The position numbers and the translations under genes are program-made. Source: Blastopirellula sediminis (GTDB taxonomy: Bacteria > Planctomycetota > Planctomycetia > Pirellulales > Pirellulaceae). From it: DNA of 64,000 bases. The stretch is taken from assembly GCF_020966755.1 (NCBI RefSeq), contig NZ_JAJKFT010000004.1, forward strand, positions 1,550,001 through 1,614,000. The letters are read 5' to 3'. How positions within the stretch are numbered: the first letter of the stretch is position 1; every line of letters begins with the position of its first letter. The notes beneath the pieces are model-generated. The model had not been told where the DNA came from, did not search any database, and saw only the letters and a list, made by a program, of their open reading frames with translations. Of the stretch, positions 2,874-11,366 are shown piece after piece.

Positions 2874-4247
2874 TTAGTCCTCGGCGCCGCTATGCGTAAC
2901 GGGCAACGTCACTTGAAAGATCGTTCCTTCCGTCGAATTCCAGCACTGCAACTCTCCATTATGCTGACGGACGATTTTATCGGTTATCGCCAGTCCCATG
3001 CCGGTGCCGGCGCTCTTCGTCGTAAAATATGGGTCGAAGATCCGCGTCTGCATTCCCTCTGGAATCCCTATTCCCGTATCAATGACTTGAATGACGACTG
3101 CGGAACCGCTTTCGTGCAGAAAAGTTCGCACCGTCAAGACGCCTCCGTCGCGCATCGCTTCCTCAGCGTTAATCAGCAAGTTCAGCAGCACTTGCTCTAG
3201 CCGCACGCGATCGGCGGATATCTTTGGCAACTCCGACGGGGACGTTTCGATCCGAATTTCGACGTTCGCGGCTTTGGCGCGCGGCTGAAAAAGCCGGGTT
3301 TGTCGAATGCAGACTTCGGAAACGTCGACCGGCGATAGGGACAAATGCTGCGACATCGCGTAGTCGCGAAAGTTTTCCAGCACTCCCCCAATGCGTACGA
3401 TCTCGGTTTGGATCACTTCCAGGCTCTCGTTCACTTCGTCCGATCGCTGCGAAGCGGCGAGTTGCTCCTCTAGCAATTGGATATGGAGCGAAAGCGCCGA
3501 CAACGGATTCTTAATCTCGTGATGCAATCCGGCGGCCAAGGAGCCGAGTCCCATAAAACGCTCCATTCGCAGCATTTGCTCGTCAAGCAAGACGCGTTCC
3601 GTCACGTCCTGCAATTGGATCACGCTGCCGATGTTCATCTCTTCATGGTTCTGCAGCGGTTGGCAATAGGCGCGTAGCGTCCGTTGCGATGATGCGGTCG
3701 CAACGGGGAAATCGCGCACCAGTTGCGACGGCGGATTGGCTTCGGCTTCGATGCGAAGCTCGTCGAGCGACAACGACGGCGACAAGGCGTCCAGGGACTG
3801 ACCCACGCAGGCGTCAGTGACCGACAGCATCTCCATGGCCCGCGCGTTGACGCTGGTAACGGCCCCCCGCAGATCGGTCGTAATCACCGCCTGGTCCATG
3901 CTGCTTAAGATGTCGGCCGCCAGCGCTTTGACGTCTCGGAGCGAATCTTGCGAATTGCGATAGGCGCGCCATAACAGGTAAATCGCGACCGCCGTCACGG
4001 CCAGATTCAGGATAGCGAGTACCGAAAGTCGAATCGTCCAGCGCAACTGCCCCTCAAGCGCCTCGCCCTGCGTCTCTAATTTCGGGGGCAACTCGCGGAG
4101 TAGATCGTGGAGGATCTGGCTCTCTCGAAAAAAGAGGTCCCCCATCACCCAGGCAGTCGCCAGAAACGCCGTCAAAATGAGGGCCAAGAGCGTGACGATT
4201 GCGCGGCGAAAACTGCGCTCGGAACCATTCGGCCGAACACGGAACAT
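2874..4247 (-). CDS. membrane sensor histidine kinase with PAS domain
   Basis: This 457-residue kinase would sense an unknown signal and phosphorylate the NtrC-like regulator encoded just downstream. Two membrane helices (about 15-35 and 73-93) bracket a short extracytoplasmic segment of roughly 40 residues, too small for a classical ligand domain. A PAS domain follows (about 108-220), then the HisKA helix with HHEIKNPL, phosphoacceptor H243, and an ATPase domain with an N-box (LLNLLINAEEAM) and a G1 box (DTGIGIP). The ATG at 4247 opens directly before a basic segment and the first helix, a plausible start. The small outer loop suggests sensing within the membrane or through the PAS domain. 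Head-to-head placement with dabA suggests a signal tied to inorganic carbon, but this is not shown. Confidence 0.93.
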   Translation of the reverse strand: MFRVRPNGSERSFRRAIVTLLALILTAFLATAWVMGDLFFRESQILHDLLRELPPKLETQGEALEGQLRWTIRLSVLAILNLAVTAVAIYLLWRAYRNSQDSLRDVKALAADILSSMDQAVITTDLRGAVTSVNARAMEMLSVTDACVGQSLDALSPSLSLDELRIEAEANPPSQLVRDFPVATASSQRTLRAYCQPLQNHEEMNIGSVIQLQDVTERVLLDEQMLRMERFMGLGSLAAGLHHEIKNPLSALSLHIQLLEEQLAASQRSDEVNESLEVIQTEIVRIGGVLENFRDYAMSQHLSLSPVDVSEVCIRQTRLFQPRAKAANVEIRIETSPSELPKISADRVRLEQVLLNLLINAEEAMRDGGVLTVRTFLHESGSAVVIQVIDTGIGIPEGMQTRIFDPYFTTKSAGTGMGLAITDKIVRQHNGELQCWNSTEGTIFQVTLPVTHSGAED

Positions 4248-4440: not shown

Positions 4441-4486
4441 TGCAGGGGATGCAGGAAACTGCATGCAAAGTGCAAGAAATTGCATG
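4441..4486 (+). promoter_or_regulatory. TGCA-rich repeat cluster, candidate activator (UAS) sites
   Basis: Two 16-bp direct repeats are visible: TGCAGGAAACTGCATG at 4450-4465 and TGCAAGAAATTGCATG at 4471-4486. They agree at 14 of 16 positions and start 21 bp apart, which is two helical turns. Each is itself a TGCA-N6/8-TGCA dyad, and a looser half copy begins at 4441. Their centres lie about 150-170 bp upstream of the start predicted from the sigma-54 match, the usual distance for NtrC-type enhancer sites. Binding by the adjacent response regulator is inference. Confidence 0.55.
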
Positions 4487-4600: not shown

Positions 4601-4618
4601 CCGGCACGCGAATTGCAG
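4601..4618 (+). promoter_or_regulatory. sigma-54 (-24/-12) promoter candidate for dabA
   Basis: The stretch GGCACGCGAATTGCA fits the TGGCAC-N5-TTGCW consensus: GG at 4603-4604 and GC at 4615-4616 are spaced as in known -24/-12 elements; only the leading T differs (C). It predicts a start near 4628 and a leader of about 80 nt before dabA. Confidence 0.6.
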
Positions 4619-4706: not shown

Positions 4707-7700
4707 TTGGCTACTGCAAAATTCGACGTGCGCAACGCAACGTCGCCACCGACCTTCGAATCTTCCCGGCAGTCGCAGCAGGAAATCCTGGAGGCGATTG
4801 AGCATGCGGCGGAGTATCTACCCGCCCAAGGGCCGATTACGTCGTTTGTGCATCACAACACGCTGCACGCCTTTGAAGATCTCACGTTCGATGAAGGAGT
4901 GCGGATCGGCGGCAGTCTATTCCAATGCCACGAGTATCTGCCGGAGGAAAAATATCGCGAGCACCTTCACCGCGGTCGCATCACCGCATCGGATCTGGAC
5001 GCAGTCCTTGTGGAAGACCTCGGGGAAGAGGTGGACCGCTTGGTGGCCAGTTTTGGGAGTCGGCACGCACTGCGATTTGCGATGCTGCGATACCCGCTCT
5101 TCTTTGGCGATCGGCACGAATTGCATTGGGTGGTCTCGGAAACCGACGCCCTCAGCAAGTTTCGCAGCGACGTCGACCCCGGCGTCCGCGATCGGATGAT
5201 TAAGCGGACGCGCCAGTGGGTCCTTCGCAATCGGCAACAGATCGAAGGCCGATCGCCTGGCGACGAAGATCCCTTGTCGCGGACGCTCTCTCGATTCCAG
5301 AGCGTGAAGTTCGATTCGTGGGATGACGCCACTTGGGAAAAATTCGTCCTGAATTTCCTTTGGCGAGTTTGTCGCGATGGAGTCGCGACGGCGCAGAACT
5401 CTACCGATACCGCTGACGAAACTACGTTTGTGCGCCATCGGGATGCATTGCTGGCGGCGACCGGAGGAGACGCCGACGTCATCGTCCACGAACATTTGGT
5501 TTCGTTTTGCGCCGCGTTCCTGGATCAAGGGTATGCGACCCTGGCTCCCCCGAACCGCGGTCAGGGATTCTACTTGTCGTTCCTTTCGCTCTACAGTCAA
5601 GGCTGGGGCGCACCGACTCGATGGCTGGCGAACCTTCAGCAAGAATCGCAACGGTTGCTGGCAAGGAACTTCTCTCCGCTCGATTCGATCGAAGAATCGC
5701 TGACATTGCTTGGCGTCGACCGGGAGGAACGCTCCGTCTTCATTCGGGACGAACTGTTGGCGCTGCGCGGTTGGGCCGGGATGATTTGGCAACTCGAATC
5801 GAATCCCAAATGGGAAACTCCGTCGACCTTTCATTGCAATTTGACCGAGTTCCTGGCGGTTCGGTTGATGTTGGTTCGGCTCGCGCTTCAACGCATCGCG
5901 GCCGCAGGGGGCGATTCTTCGGTCCGTTTGGATCAAATCCGTGAGCGTTACCAGGGGCAAAAGCGATCTTCCCAAACCGACGATCGCGAACTCCTCGCCT
6001 ACGTCCTCTTTCAACTCGCGCAGGTGCGAGGTTGGCGCCCCGACGAATTGCACCACCTGCAACACGAGCAATGGACGTCGCTCGTCGGCGAGGTGAACGC
6101 GTTTTCCAGTCTGGATCGTCGACGGATTTATCATGCGGCGTACGAACGCAAATACGCTCGCGAAGCGCTCGACGCGCTCCTGGCCTATTCCAAGCGGCGA
6201 ACTCGCGAAACAACTGCTCCGGCGAAGGGGGAATCGCCAAGCTTTCAAGCGATTACCTGTCTGGACGACCGCGAGGAGTCGTTTCGGCGTCATTTGGAAG
6301 AAATCGATCCGAGTTGCGAGACGTACGGTACGGCGGGCTTCTTTGGCGTCGCCATGTCGTATCGCGGGATTGCGGATGCGCGATTCGTGTCGCTTTGCCC
6401 GGTCAACGTCGTCCCCCGTCATCAGGTCGTCGAAACGCCCGACTTTTCCGCAGCGCGATCCGAAGAACGCCTGGCGCAAACGCGGCGACATATCGGTCGT
6501 GCGACGCATCAGGCGCACCTGGCGTCGAGAACGTTTCTCGGCGGCACGATCGCAGGGCTCCTCGGTTCGGCATTAGCCTTCGTTTTGGTCGTGCGAGTTA
6601 TTTTTCCGCGGCTCGCGTCGTATGCACATCGCCAGGCTCGCTCGCTGATTTATACGAATCGTACCACGCTGCAATTGGAGCAAGACTCGACTTCGCCAGA
6701 GGGGGAAGAACGTTTGCGCGGGTACTGTGTGGAAGAAATGGGCGAAATCGTCAAAGGGTTGCTGAAAAGCGTCGGGCTGACCGGGAATTGGGCGCCTTTG
6801 GTCGTCCTTTTGGGGCACGGCTCCGCCAGTTTGAACAACCCGCACGAGTCCGCCTACAACTGCGGTGCGTGCGCCGGAGGACGGGGCGGTCCGAACGCAC
6901 GTGCGTTCGCTGCGATGGCGAACGATCTGCGAGTTCGTCGCCTGCTCGCCGAGCAAGGGTTGGAGATCCCCGAAACGACCTTTTTCGTCGGCGGCTATCA
7001 TGATACGACCAACGACGCCGTGACGTTCGCCGATGTGGACCACGTTCCCCACTCGCACCGCCAGCGGTTTGAGGAAGTCGTGCGCACGTGCGACGAGGCG
7101 CGCCGCCGCAACGCCCAAGAACGTTGCCGACGTTTCGAGTCGGCCGATTTGAACATTTCTCCCGCCGATGCGCTGCGGCACGTCGAAAATCGACCGGAGG
7201 ACCTGTCGCAACCCCGTCCGGAATACAACCACGCGACCAATGCGATGTGCATCGTCGGGCGTCGCGAAAACGTTCGCGGATTGTTTCTCGATCGCCGCGC
7301 CTTTCTGGCGTCATATGATCCGACGCAAGACGATGCGAATGGGACCGTGCTCGAAAGCCAACTGCGCGCCGTGATCCCGGTATGCGCCGGCATCAACCTG
7401 GAGTACTACTTCTCGACGGTTGATCCGGAAGGGTATGGGTGCGGCTCGAAGTTGCCTCACAACATTACTTCGCTGTTGGGGGTGATGACCGGTGCGGCCA
7501 GCGACTTGCGACCGGGTTTGTCGACGCAGATGATAGAGATTCATGAGCCGATGCGATTGCTGTTCGTCATTGAAACGACGACGGAGGTCATGCAGCGAAT
7601 CATCGAGTGCAATGAAACGATCGCTCGGCTGGCGAAAGGGAAATGGATTCAACTGGCGGTGATCGACTATGCGTCAGCTCAAGTTTGGCGCTTTGACGGC

Positions 7701-7835
7701 GCGAGATTTATTCAATACATGCCGGAAGAGGACGAACTTCCCGTCGCTGCGTCTTCGTACGCCTGGTACCAGGGACGCCGCGGAAATCTTCCCTTCGCAG
7801 AAATTGCCCCCTCCTCGGCCGGTCTGGGAGGTTAG
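4707..7835 (+). CDS. dabA: DabA, zinc subunit of the DAC inorganic-carbon transporter (DUF2309)
   Basis: This 1042-residue protein matches DabA, which with a membrane DabB subunit accumulates bicarbonate, probably by energy-coupled one-way hydration of CO2 on the cytoplasmic side. Its beta-carbonic-anhydrase-like zinc site is recognisable: C518 and D520 in ITCLDDREES, H704 in LGHGS and C719 in YNCGACAGG. The C-x-D pattern and the 15-residue H-to-C spacing match the ligand set I recall for characterised DabA (C351, D353, H524, C539), so the enzyme should be active. The start is a TTG at 4707 preceded by AAGAAGG at 4694-4700; no nearby in-frame ATG fits better. It is the first gene of dabA-dabB-second antiporter subunit-carbonic anhydrase homologue, with 6 bp to dabB. 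Confidence 0.95.
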   Translation: MATAKFDVRNATSPPTFESSRQSQQEILEAIEHAAEYLPAQGPITSFVHHNTLHAFEDLTFDEGVRIGGSLFQCHEYLPEEKYREHLHRGRITASDLDAVLVEDLGEEVDRLVASFGSRHALRFAMLRYPLFFGDRHELHWVVSETDALSKFRSDVDPGVRDRMIKRTRQWVLRNRQQIEGRSPGDEDPLSRTLSRFQSVKFDSWDDATWEKFVLNFLWRVCRDGVATAQNSTDTADETTFVRHRDALLAATGGDADVIVHEHLVSFCAAFLDQGYATLAPPNRGQGFYLSFLSLYSQGWGAPTRWLANLQQESQRLLARNFSPLDSIEESLTLLGVDREERSVFIRDELLALRGWAGMIWQLESNPKWETPSTFHCNLTEFLAVRLMLVRLALQRIAAAGGDSSVRLDQIRERYQGQKRSSQTDDRELLAYVLFQLAQVRGWRPDELHHLQHEQWTSLVGEVNAFSSLDRRRIYHAAYERKYAREALDALLAYSKRRTRETTAPAKGESPSFQAITCLDDREESFRRHLEEIDPSCETYGTAGFFGVAMSYRGIADARFVSLCPVNVVPRHQVVETPDFSAARSEERLAQTRRHIGRATHQAHLASRTFLGGTIAGLLGSALAFVLVVRVIFPRLASYAHRQARSLIYTNRTTLQLEQDSTSPEGEERLRGYCVEEMGEIVKGLLKSVGLTGNWAPLVVLLGHGSASLNNPHESAYNCGACAGGRGGPNARAFAAMANDLRVRRLLAEQGLEIPETTFFVGGYHDTTNDAVTFADVDHVPHSHRQRFEEVVRTCDEARRRNAQERCRRFESADLNISPADALRHVENRPEDLSQPRPEYNHATNAMCIVGRRENVRGLFLDRRAFLASYDPTQDDANGTVLESQLRAVIPVCAGINLEYYFSTVDPEGYGCGSKLPHNITSLLGVMTGAASDLRPGLSTQMIEIHEPMRLLFVIETTTEVMQRIIECNETIARLAKGKWIQLAVIDYASAQVWRFDGARFIQYMPEEDELPVAASSYAWYQGRRGNLPFAEIAPSSAGLGG

Positions 7836-7841
7836 AAAGAG

Positions 7842-9242
7842 ATGGATCTCGTGACGTGGGACGCTTTTATTTTCGGTCTGGGGATCGGTTGCCTGGCCGC
7901 CCCTGCATTGTTGCTTGTCGTTCTTGCGGCGGCCAGCTTCTTGAGCCGGCGACTCACTGAACGCGCGACGGCGAGACTAACGGCGATTTGCGTTATTTTC
8001 GGGATGGTCTGCGCCATGATCATCTTGGGGACGATGCTTGCCAGCGGAAGTCGCAAGGTCGTGATCGAACTTGGCAATTGGGTGGCGATCCCCTCAGAAC
8101 ACTATCACTTCCAACTGCGATTCATTTTCGACCGCCTTTCGATTCCCTTCGTGCTGCTCACGTACGTTCTCTGCGGCGTCGTCGGGAAATTTGCGAGCCG
8201 CTATCTGCATCGCGAGATCGGATTCACGCGATTCTTCTTGTTCTACTCTTTCTTTTTCTTCGGGATGGTCGTGTCGTCGCTGGCCGGTACGATCGAAACG
8301 TTGTTTCTCGGTTGGGAATTCGTCGGTCTGTCGTCCGCTCTGTTGATCGCCTACTTTCACCAACGCACGAATCCGGTTCAAAATGGCCTGCACGTCTGGG
8401 CGATCTATCGCTTGTCCGATGCGGCGCTGGTGATCTCGATGCTGACGCTGCATCATGCGACCGGGGGCGGAGATTTCGATCATATTGTGGGGAGGCAGCC
8501 TTGGCCGCTGGGGAATGTCGAACTCGACCAGTTCAACCTCCTGATGATCAGCGGTTTGTTGTTGATCGCGGCGGCGGGAAAGTCCGCGCTGATTCCATTT
8601 TGCGGTTGGTTGCCGCGAGCCATGGAAGGCCCGACTCCGTCTAGCGCGATCTTCTATGGCGCACTGTCGGCCCATTTGGGCGCGTTTCTGTTGCTCCGGT
8701 TCAGCCCGTTGATCGCCGCTTCGTGGATCGTCAGTACCGTCGTCATCCTCATTGGACTGGCGACCGCTTGTTTGGGCGCCATGTCGGCCCGCGTTCAAGC
8801 CGACGTGAAAAGCGCCATCGCTTTTTCCTCCCTCACGCAGGTCGGGATCATCCTGGTGGAGATCGGGCTTGGTCTTCCGTATGTCGCGCTGATTCACATC
8901 ATCGGTCATGCCTGCTTGCGAACGCTGCAGTTCCTCCGCGCTCCGTCGGTGTTGCACGACTACAACGCCTTGGAAAACGCCATCGGTTCGCGATTGTCGC
9001 CTACGCACTTGCCGGAGTCATTAACGGAAGCGTCGTTCGGCCGCCAATGGACGTACCGCTTTTCGCTCGAACGCGGATTCCTGGATGAGATCCTCCGTTC
9101 CTATATTGTTGCGCCCTTTATGGGAACGTTCCGCTGGTTCGACAAGCAGGAGCGTCGTTGGACCCAGTTTTTGTCGGGGGAAAGCGGAGAGGAACGGGCC
9201 GCGGCAATTCATCAAGATCGCTCTTTGGAAGAACTGACCTAA
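7842..9242 (+). CDS. dabB: DabB, NuoL-like proton-conducting membrane subunit
   Basis: This 466-residue, many-helix membrane protein is of the complex I/Mrp antiporter family (Proton_antipo_M) and should conduct the ion flow that drives DabA. The central block [19 protein letters not shown] contains the membrane lysine and the WLP-x-AMEGPTP signature; it continues into [14 protein letters not shown], where respiratory NuoL has HAATMV. That substitution is what I recall for DabB. The protein ends in a hydrophilic tail of about 50 residues without the long lateral helix of NuoL. The gene lies 6 bp after dabA, and its TAA stop shares one base with the next ATG. Confidence 0.92.
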
Positions 9243-10666
9243 TGGCTGAACTGCACGCGCCCTGGTTGGAACTCGCAGTTCTGGTCACCTTGGCGGGATC
9301 CATCCTGACCGCGGCCATCCAAGATCGATCGAGCTGCCAACGCGTTTGCCTGGCGATCTGCATCGTGGCGCAACTTCTTGCGCTCGGCGGTTGCGTCGAC
9401 TTTTTCGCCTCCGGCGCCGACGCAGGGAGTTTCGCAGCGCTCGGCAGTCTTGGCCTGGTGATCGACGACTTAAGTTCGCCGCTGATTCCGCTGGCGGCGC
9501 TGCAATTTCTGTTGACGGTCTTGTCGACGCTAAAGACCAAGGTCGGCCGTTTTTCGTTTAGCGCGGCCCTCTTTTCGGAAGGAATCGCGTTCGCCTTGCT
9601 AGGATGTCTCAATTCGCCAGGCATTCTGATGCTGTTGATCGTCGGGGCCATCCCGCTCTGGATGGAGTTGCGGCTGCGCCGACAGTCGACCCGCGTTTAC
9701 ACGTTTTATTTCTCGCTGTTCGCCGCACTTTTGATCGCTGGTGAAATCGTTTCCCTCTCCGGCTCTCCCGTTTGGGGCGGTGCGCTCACGACGGCGGCGA
9801 TTCTGCTCCGCTGCGGGGTCGTTCCGCTGCATGGCTGGGCGGCCGACTTGATCGAGCGGGCCTCGTTTGGTTCGGCGCTCCTCACGTTGACCCTCATGCC
9901 GGGCGTCTACGCGATGGCGCGACTGGTTCTTCCCGAGGCGCCGGCGGCGACGCTGCAAGTGGTCGCGATTCTTTCGCTGATTACCGCGGCGTATGCCGCG
10001 TCGATGGCGCTGGTTCAAACGGAGGCTCGCCGATTTTTCGCCTACCTGTTTTTGAGCAACTCGTCGTTGGTTCTGGTCGGACTGAGCGCTGCGACGCCCA
10101 TCAGCATGACCGGCGCCATGTGCGCCTGGATCTCGATCCAACTGGCCTTAACTGGTCTCGGAATCACCTTGCGCTGCGTCGAAGCTCGGATTGGTCGCAT
10201 CTCGCTCAGCGAGTACCACGGCTTTTACGATCACATGCCGATGTTGGCCGCCTTGTTTTTGATCACGGGGCTCGCGTCGATTGGTTTTCCCGGAACGATC
10301 GGCTTTATCGCCGGTGAGATCTTGATTGACGGCGTCGTGACCGCCTACCCCATTGCCGGGATATTGGCGGCCGCGATCAGCGCGCTAAACGGCATTGCGA
10401 TTTTGAAGGTCTATTTTCGCATCTTCAATGGGCGCTCGCGCGTCGTTTACTACTCGATCGGCTCGCGGCCTGCGGAGCGGTTCGCCATTTCGATAATCGC
10501 CGCGCTCATCATCGCCGGCGGCCTCTTTCCGCAGTTGGGAATGAGTTCCTGTTTCCGGGCGGCGCAGCATTTTGTTCAAAGACGCGAAGAGAACTTCGGC
10601 GCACATCCGCCCCACACGACGCAGCATGCGGCCGTTTCGCCGGCGGCGACGCATCCCCGCGAGTGA
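9242..10666 (+). CDS. second NuoM/NuoN-like antiporter subunit in the DAC operon
   Basis: This 474-residue hydrophobic protein has roughly a dozen membrane helices and the Proton_antipo_M core, including VVPLHGWAADLIERAS in place of the usual WLPDA-x2-xAPTP. The frame opens 28 codons upstream, but the ATG at 9242 overlaps the dabB stop by one base, and [11 protein letters not shown] is a better N-terminus. The last 40 residues are hydrophilic and histidine-rich. Characterised DAC systems are described with one DabB-type subunit; here a second, clearly different paralogue sits in the same operon. It may form a larger ion channel with DabB, or be an alternative subunit. Confidence 0.88.
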   Translation: MAELHAPWLELAVLVTLAGSILTAAIQDRSSCQRVCLAICIVAQLLALGGCVDFFASGADAGSFAALGSLGLVIDDLSSPLIPLAALQFLLTVLSTLKTKVGRFSFSAALFSEGIAFALLGCLNSPGILMLLIVGAIPLWMELRLRRQSTRVYTFYFSLFAALLIAGEIVSLSGSPVWGGALTTAAILLRCGVVPLHGWAADLIERASFGSALLTLTLMPGVYAMARLVLPEAPAATLQVVAILSLITAAYAASMALVQTEARRFFAYLFLSNSSLVLVGLSAATPISMTGAMCAWISIQLALTGLGITLRCVEARIGRISLSEYHGFYDHMPMLAALFLITGLASIGFPGTIGFIAGEILIDGVVTAYPIAGILAAAISALNGIAILKVYFRIFNGRSRVVYYSIGSRPAERFAISIIAALIIAGGLFPQLGMSSCFRAAQHFVQRREENFGAHPPHTTQHAAVSPAATHPRE

Positions 10667-10730: not shown

Positions 10731-11366
10731 ATGATTCTGCTCGACAAAAGCCTGCACCAGTTCGCTCCCCAATACTTTGGTACGGCGTTTGACATTCAGC
10801 AGTCGCTGGATGACGACGTATGCGACATTCTGATGATCGCCTGCTCTTGCCATGGGAGCGCACCGGACGAAGTTTCGATCGCAGGGCCGGAGCGAATTTT
10901 CACTTTGCAGCATCTAGCCGCGACGGTTCCGGCGGCAACGGAGGAGAGTCCGACTTCTGCGGCGGATGACCTGGCCTATGCGTTTCAGTACTTCGACTTC
11001 AAGCATGTCATCCTTTGCGGACATATGGGCTGCAACGTGATCCGCCGCTGGGCTCAGCCTGACCAGAACGATAGTCGGGGGCTGCAAAAGAAGTTTCAGC
11101 AGACGACGGCCAGCGTGGTGGATCAGACCTATCCCACGCGGCTCGATCACGAGCGGCAACGACTGCTGATTTGCGAGCACCTATTATGTCAGCTGGAGAA
11201 TCTCCTGACGCACGACTTTGTCCTGGATCGTCTGGAAACCGGTGAGCTGCGCCTGCACGGCTGGCTGGTCGACGAAATGACGGCCCGCATTCGGGCGTAC
11301 GATGCGGTCCATGGACGCTTCGTGCCGATCGAAAAGCTCCGGCGCGAATCGTTGGCGCAGTCCTAG
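10731..11366 (+). CDS. beta-carbonic-anhydrase homologue lacking the Asp-Arg dyad
   Basis: This 211-residue protein has the beta-carbonic-anhydrase zinc ligands: C38 in IACSCHGS, and H98 and C101 in CGHMGCN, with spacing close to that of E. coli-type enzymes. The usual C-x-D-x-R motif is C-S-C-H-G here, so the Asp and Arg that gate the zinc-bound hydroxide are Cys40 and Gly42. The protein could bind zinc yet be inactive, altered or regulatory. It lies 64 bp after the antiporter gene on the same strand, so it is probably co-transcribed. An accessory role, such as sensing bicarbonate or assisting DabA, is inference. No signal peptide is seen, so it should be cytoplasmic. Confidence 0.85.
   Translation: MILLDKSLHQFAPQYFGTAFDIQQSLDDDVCDILMIACSCHGSAPDEVSIAGPERIFTLQHLAATVPAATEESPTSAADDLAYAFQYFDFKHVILCGHMGCNVIRRWAQPDQNDSRGLQKKFQQTTASVVDQTYPTRLDHERQRLLICEHLLCQLENLLTHDFVLDRLETGELRLHGWLVDEMTARIRAYDAVHGRFVPIEKLRRESLAQS

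Follow-up and report, generated by a model that had tools for sequence, protein, structure and literature searches.

Beta-carbonic-anhydrase homologues without the Asp-Arg dyad in inorganic-carbon gene clusters of Pirellulales

Introduction

What does a beta-carbonic anhydrase (beta-CA) homologue do once the Asp-Arg dyad of the catalytic enzymes is gone? The question is raised by a gene of Blastopirellula sediminis located in a stretch of 64,000 nucleotides, which we will call the window (contig NZ_JAJKFT010000004.1, positions 1,550,001 to 1,614,000). A preliminary description had suspected a new role for its product, for example as a bicarbonate sensor or a partner of DabA, and the suspicion is reasonable. 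We will use the label pCA for the group of dyad-less beta-CA homologues that includes the window protein.

Sequence and predicted fold of the window protein

The features of the window are collected in Table 1. Reading the sequence bears out the open reading frame, the zinc ligands Cys38, His98 and Cys101, and the motif CSCHG as first described. The Cys-His-Cys zinc triad is complete, and the Asp-Arg dyad of catalytic beta-CAs (CxDxR) is gone. The protein matches the Pro_CA family (PF00484) over residues 34-184 of 211 with 61.3 bits (cut-off 25.7). The host genome has three further Pro_CA genes, each scoring above the window protein, and both of those whose frame was read (L002 and L003) carry CADSR.

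Table 1. Features of the window and their positions
Feature	Position	Strand	Remarks
Histidine kinase	2874..4247	-	divergent from dabA; PF00512/PF02518
TGCAAGAAATTGCA, possible activator site	4471..4484	+	one of two exact TGCAAGWAWTTGCA matches in the genome
Sigma-54-like -24/-12 site, CGGCACGCGAATTGCA	4602..4617	+	105 nt 5' of the dabA ORF start
dabA	4707..7835	+	1042 aa; PF10070, E 1.4e-231; own CxDxR intact (CLDDR)
dabB1, NuoL-like antiporter subunit	7842..9242	+	466 aa; PF00361/PF00662
dabB2, second antiporter-like subunit (NuoM/N-like)	9158..10666	+	502 aa; PF00361
pCA, dyad-less beta-CA homologue	10731..11366	+	211 aa ORF, ATG to TAG
Codons 38-42, C-S-C-H-G at the CxDxR position	10842..10856	+	Cys38 kept, Asp40 to Cys, Arg42 to Gly
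Codons 98-101, H-M-G-C	11022..11033	+	zinc ligands His98 and Cys101, within CGHMGC

An AlphaFold2 model built on a 14-row alignment has the beta-CA fold (pLDDT 83.8, pTM 0.84), with pLDDT below 50 in the altered loop (residues 41-48). A structure search with this model gave Z scores of 13.9-19.5 for 48 of the 50 entries listed and 10.0-10.1 for the other two. Among the entries listed, the top solved structure is CcaA (5swc; Z 19.5, rmsd 2.9 over 172 residues), a carboxysomal protein that is also the closest match in sequence (E 5.6e-13). CcaA keeps CSDSR where the window protein reads CSCHG.

A group marked by the loss of the dyad arginine

A search of 60 relatives with the window protein turned up three clear orthologues (39-42% identity). 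At E 1e-25, a profile of these four proteins picked out 18 of the 396 genomes searched in the order, 12 with dyad-less proteins and six with CxDSR. With a 13-member profile, matches at E 1e-42 were found in 15 of 241 genomes of the host's family; all 14 in which the motif can be read are dyad-less, and the fifteenth (G893), cut by a contig edge before the motif, was counted for genomic context and left out of the motif counts and the tree. A phylum-wide draw of 392 genomes gave 28 matches at E 1e-30, three dyad-less (G000, G089 and G118) and 25 with CSDSR. A scan of named genomes returned 14 loci, one an ordinary CSDSR enzyme (L157) and 13 pCA, including those of Rhodopirellula sp. JC639, Stieleria sedimenti, Stieleria tagensis, a Bythopirellula MAG and an alphaproteobacterial MAG (L148). 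The group has 20 members, 19 from Pirellulales and the one from the alphaproteobacterial MAG. Full-length dyad-less proteins score above 260 bits, the truncated member 166 and ordinary beta-CAs below 140. A broken copy in G214, left out of the 20, scores under the ordinary beta-CAs, and the cut-offs used (E 1e-25, 1e-30 and 1e-42) would miss members decayed in this manner or more diverged.

None of the 19 full-length members has Arg42; glycine takes its place in 18 and aspartate in one. Position 40 is occupied by Asp in nine, Glu in seven and Gly in two; the cysteine occurs in the window protein alone. Since the arginine is lost throughout while Cys40 is confined to the window, CSCHG is private to this protein and the lost arginine is the family trait. 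The idea that homologues share CSCHG was therefore not borne out. A local mutation, which the preliminary description had named as the finding that would speak against it, is ruled out, as none of the 19 has CxDxR. Loss of the arginine thus marks the whole group as sampled, and loss of the acid is rarer and scattered. The retention of the zinc ligands holds for the window protein and for 16 of the 19, which have the complete triad; one or two ligands are lost in the other three, with Ser for Cys101 in G029 and G007, and Arg for His98 together with Ser for Cys101 in G204a. Zinc may be dispensable in this part of the group.

In a tree of the 19 pCA and 27 ordinary beta-CAs (a selection from those fetched), calculated without the dyad and ligand columns 38-42, 98 and 101 and with no fixed root position, a single branch with support 100/100 and a length of 1.48 changes per column splits the two sets. 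The reading frames of pCA are intact at about 40% identity between genera, and omega is 0.085-0.40 in six pairs tested, a sign of purifying selection that is rough where dS is high; some rows in both comparisons begin a few codons off. These omega values argue that pCA is functional. The broken copy in G214 and the patchy spread in the host's family (the 15 genomes mentioned above) would suit a functionless CA relic kept by linkage, but the intact frames, the low omega and a linkage to inorganic-carbon genes that is rearranged yet persistent make such a relic very improbable.

Comparison with CafD and the question of residual catalysis

Outside pCA, loss of the dyad arginine appears in the sequences compared in a single fungal enzyme, CafD, the minor beta-CA of Aspergillus fumigatus, which has low activity. 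CafD has the same change of Arg to Gly as most pCA, aligns as CSDSG, and in entry 6jqe shares the beta-CA fold with the window model (Z 15.4). The change is natural, not being among the named mutations of entries 6lac and 6lai. CafD differs in that it keeps the Asp, is fungal and is 19-22% identical to the window protein. A search on CafC and CafD found no paper on CafD in the open-licence literature.

By this comparison, pCA could still be a CA with a slow or altered mechanism, in which zinc is bound and another residue partly replaces the dyad, as perhaps in CafD. The substitutes would be the Glu or Asp at position 40 of most relatives, and His or Gln at position 41. Sixteen of the 19 have an acid at position 40 and 16 have the full triad, which keeps weak or altered activity in consideration, and CafD provides a natural example with a related structure. 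On the other hand, the window protein has neither Asp nor Glu at position 40, one or two zinc ligands are missing in three relatives, and one pCA genome (G089) already has an ordinary beta-CA by dabA. The importance of the dyad is further illustrated by DabA2, whose beta-CA-like fold carries C351, D353, R355, H524 and C539; alanine at the zinc ligands and the dyad impaired growth at low CO2, so that the Asp-Arg pair matters to the function of DAB2 (PMC13144422). From this growth defect we infer that ordinary CO2 hydration is not the job of pCA, and we regard a slow CA as rather unlikely.

Genomic contexts

In the window, pCA closes a run on the plus strand, in the order dabA, dabB1, dabB2 and pCA. 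The preliminary description placed it beside dabA. It does belong to the same inorganic-carbon cluster, but it is fourth in the run, 64 nt past dabB2, and dabA is not its direct neighbour. DabA (PF10070), the subunit of a vectorial CO2 hydratase, is a large membrane-complex subunit with an intact dyad, whereas the homologous pCA is short and dyad-less.

Seventeen of the 20 members adjoin or lie near an inorganic-carbon gene, namely a dabA cluster in eight cases, an iota-CA gene in seven, an LCIB_C_CA gene in one and a SulP-CA fusion in one. Of the remaining three, two are next to a histidine kinase and one (G155) is near a CaMKII_AD gene. The dabA type has two arrangements. In the window, G089, G118 and G134, pCA is at the 3' end of a dabA-dabB1-dabB2 cluster, and in the last three it follows SulP (gaps of 32 nt in G134 and 34 nt in G118; all intergenic distances are approximate, gene starts being longest ORFs or our own estimates). 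In G306, G388, G889 and G891, it is divergent from dabA and adjoins a kinase. The iota-CA neighbours are found in G007, G029, G039, G204a, G802, G841 and L148; those of G029 and G039 match the solved iota-CA 7c5x at E 1.6e-90 and 2.4e-25, and the other five match these two. Two further genomes, G005 and G899 (L197 and L201), have iota-CA beside a gene that matches the SulP-CA fusion. The second pCA copy of G204 is 46 nt from the LCIB_C_CA gene, and in G353 pCA is downstream of a kinase and a regulator, on the far side of which lies the SulP-CA fusion, at a distance of about 4.5 kb. The two members next to a kinase are G893, at the contig edge, and G206, where pCA lies between an NtrC-type (sigma-54) response regulator and a histidine kinase. 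Upstream of this set in G206 is a PF03601 (Cons_hypoth698) protein (L066:4771-6435), which we would guess to be an anion or bicarbonate transporter.

In the alphaproteobacterial MAG, the iota-CA and pCA genes overlap by 11 nt if the first start codon is used (L148:9481-10603), and the pair is flanked by CobW genes on both sides. The pair would reflect either a cross-phylum transfer or a mis-binned contig. Mis-binning is possible because this MAG comes from the sample series IP29b, as do four planctomycete loci, although the contig measures 892 kb.

With eight of 20 members in a dabA cluster, the proposal that homologues always neighbour dabA does not hold. Searches by genome found no DabA match in G007, G029, G039 or G206, and G155 is not among the 177 DabA-matching genomes of the 396 searched in the order; G204 and G353 have DabA matches away from pCA. 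DabA was checked in four of the seven iota-CA-neighbour genomes (G007, G029, G039 and G204). Because the first three have no dabA, pCA is not a dedicated DabA partner, and this candidate was rejected; as a general role, such a partnership is unlikely. Judged by its neighbours, pCA is tied to the handling of inorganic carbon as a whole and not just to DabA. Nor is it simply the CA of its cluster, since an ordinary CSDSR beta-CA lies beside dabA in G089 and a gene matching beta-CA lies there in G118; that pCA is the only CA of its cluster is ruled out by G089.

The contexts also bear on whether pCA could be a pseudo-subunit, forming a heteromer with an ordinary beta-CA or docking onto DabA or iota-CA. 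Beta-CAs form dimers or larger oligomers, and the linkage is tight, as in the short SulP gaps of G134 and G118 and the overlap in L148. By contrast, DabA, iota-CA and LCIB are unrelated, so that a single conserved surface for docking would be surprising, and DabA is absent from three iota-type genomes (G007, G029 and G039). A pseudo-subunit is therefore improbable.

DAB clusters without pCA and the sigma-54-like sites

DabA is widespread in the order, with matches in 177 of the 396 genomes, and pCA can therefore be compared with DAB clusters that do without it. As controls, 20 clusters of the same type, about 18 kb each, were hand-picked for long DabA and long contigs; the genome of one of them (G353) carries a pCA at another site. 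None of these 20 clusters contains an intact pCA. The G214 control holds the broken remnant after dabB2 (L181:11919-12497), in a genus that also has intact copies (G089, G118 and G134). An ordinary CxDSR beta-CA is present in six of the 20. All 20 have dabB1 and dabB2, two different antiporter-like subunits, with SulP often coming after them. DAB2, by contrast, is described with one DabB (PMC13144422), and the two-dabB clusters are possibly a larger DAB variant.

The kinase of the window has PAS matches under the cut-off and N-terminal hydrophobic stretches, judged by eye, and is 44-45% identical to the kinases of the G206, G306 and G388 pCA loci. The sigma-54-like site upstream of dabA agrees with 11 of 12 positions of the consensus, and none of 200 shuffles equals it. 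As a counterpart to the possible activator site TGCAAGAAATTGCA of the window, TGCAAGTATTTGCA sits between dabA and the beta-CA gene in G089. Among pCA-bearing DAB and kinase loci, sites of at least 10/12 are found in nine of 15 upstream regions and sites of at least 9/12 in 14 of 15, the latter being weak matches equalled by 8 to 12% of shuffles. No site of at least 9/12 is found in the nine iota, CaMKII and LCIB pCA loci.

Such features also occur in many DAB clusters without pCA. A divergent kinase and an NtrC-type regulator accompany 11 of the 20 control clusters, compared with a kinase in nine of the 20 pCA loci. Sites of at least 10/12 precede dabA in eight of the 20 controls, in eight of the 11 with the NtrC-type regulator and in none of the nine without it. 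An unmatched control of 30 dabA loci, with such sites in none and sites of at least 9/12 in five, is misleading because it is mostly of another DabA type, higher-scoring and shorter. Kinase, regulator and sigma-54-like sites were therefore set aside as evidence for a sensory link specific to pCA, although G206 and G353, which have pCA with kinase and regulator and no dabA alongside, favour a link. From these patterns, many DAB clusters with long DabA are probably under sigma-54 two-component control, and we conclude that pCA is an optional passenger of this regulon, not its defining part. No paper on sigma-54 control or on a DabA/CA link in planctomycetes was found in the open-licence literature.

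Iota-CA branch and zinc

All three pCA with incomplete zinc ligands belong to the iota branch, and iota-CA itself is metal-independent. For this branch alone, and overlapping with the other readings, pCA could be a low-zinc back-up within a Fur-family (Zur-like) regulon that swaps zinc enzymes for zinc-sparing versions. A CobW/COG0523 gene lies within about 8 kb of six of the eight branch members (G007, G029, G155, G204a, G841 and L148), Fur-family genes are near two (G155 and G204a), and a PTPS gene is near G155, with an 80% identical one in G204. The Zur regulons of other bacteria include COG0523, QueD and a gamma-CA paralogue (PMC2770081).

A palindrome, CTTGCA-N7-TGCAAG, is located between iota-CA and pCA in four of four divergent pairs with zero to two mismatches (L037:9234, L038:9521, L137:2268 and L138:1196), against a chance expectation of 0.65 to 2.1 matches per locus over three spacings. 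The same palindrome occurs 5' of CobW in G029 and G841 (L037 and L137), and we consider it a candidate metal-responsive box. It also precedes iota-CA in some genomes that lack pCA, with matches in nine of 24 placed loci (one region empty, the four pCA pairs included). As in the DAB clusters, pCA is optional here, being found in just four of the 29 iota-CA genomes of the host's family.

Against the low-zinc reading, a search of the upstream regions of G039, G155, G204 and L148 did not find the palindrome, and the identity of the regulator as Zur is putative. The window itself is outside this reading, with no CobW match in its first 20 kb and no Fur-family gene among eight genes typed. A low-zinc role for the iota branch is plausible and would fit the lost zinc ligands, though we regard it as less likely than not.

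Proposed function of pCA

We propose that pCA is a distinct, functional branch of beta-CAs that gave up the dyad and became an accessory protein of inorganic-carbon acquisition instead of a conventional CA, a proposal held with about as much belief as doubt. The loss of the dyad is read from the sequences, and the accessory role is suggested by genomic context. Since these recurring neighbours are not related to one another, they are better accounted for by a shared ligand (CO2 or bicarbonate) than by a shared docking surface. The retained beta-CA pocket would still bind CO2 or bicarbonate, with or without zinc. pCA would then report this binding to the co-encoded module for CO2 hydration or transport (DAB plus SulP, iota-CA or LCIB), or modulate that module; alternatively, the signal would be directed to the two-component regulator of the module. 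In the window protein, Cys40 together with Cys38, His98 and Cys101 could form a putative Cys3His zinc site that is closed, leaving no coordination position free. We infer that pCA would lack ordinary CA activity, bind a ligand and have a regulatory output, and a bicarbonate or CO2 sensor, as first suggested, is possible, although the kinase, regulator and sigma-54 sites that would speak for it are frequent in DAB clusters lacking pCA as well. A ligand-binding accessory or regulator, which we believe about as much as we doubt, is favoured over the weak CA, which is rather unlikely, and over the improbable pseudo-subunit.

A more specific form of this proposal draws on the alpha-class carbonic-anhydrase-related proteins (CARPs), which keep the CA fold, have lost catalytic residues and act as binding partners. 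pCA would be their beta-class counterpart, a dyad-less regulator that binds CO2 or bicarbonate, serves DAB, iota-CA, LCIB and SulP-CA in planctomycetes and is transferable with iota-CA to another phylum. The likeness is by analogy alone, since CARPs have an unrelated fold, are animal proteins and have lost zinc histidines rather than the dyad. We offer this counterpart tentatively, as less probable than the general proposal.

Significance

No bacterial group with a beta-CA fold, without the arginine and tied to several inorganic-carbon modules, was found in the open-licence literature. The RuBisCO large chain was matched in none of 17 pCA genomes (G893 left out), while the same search matched five of 14 control genomes. 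The inorganic carbon taken up here therefore probably feeds carboxylations other than those of the Calvin cycle. For annotation, the dyad should be checked before Pro_CA matches are counted as carbonic anhydrases. The evidence suggests that an old enzyme has been reused as a helper or sensor of inorganic carbon. If pCA senses or gates inorganic carbon, it would offer a handle on the control of DAB complexes and on the regulation of CO2 uptake in planctomycetes that lack RuBisCO.
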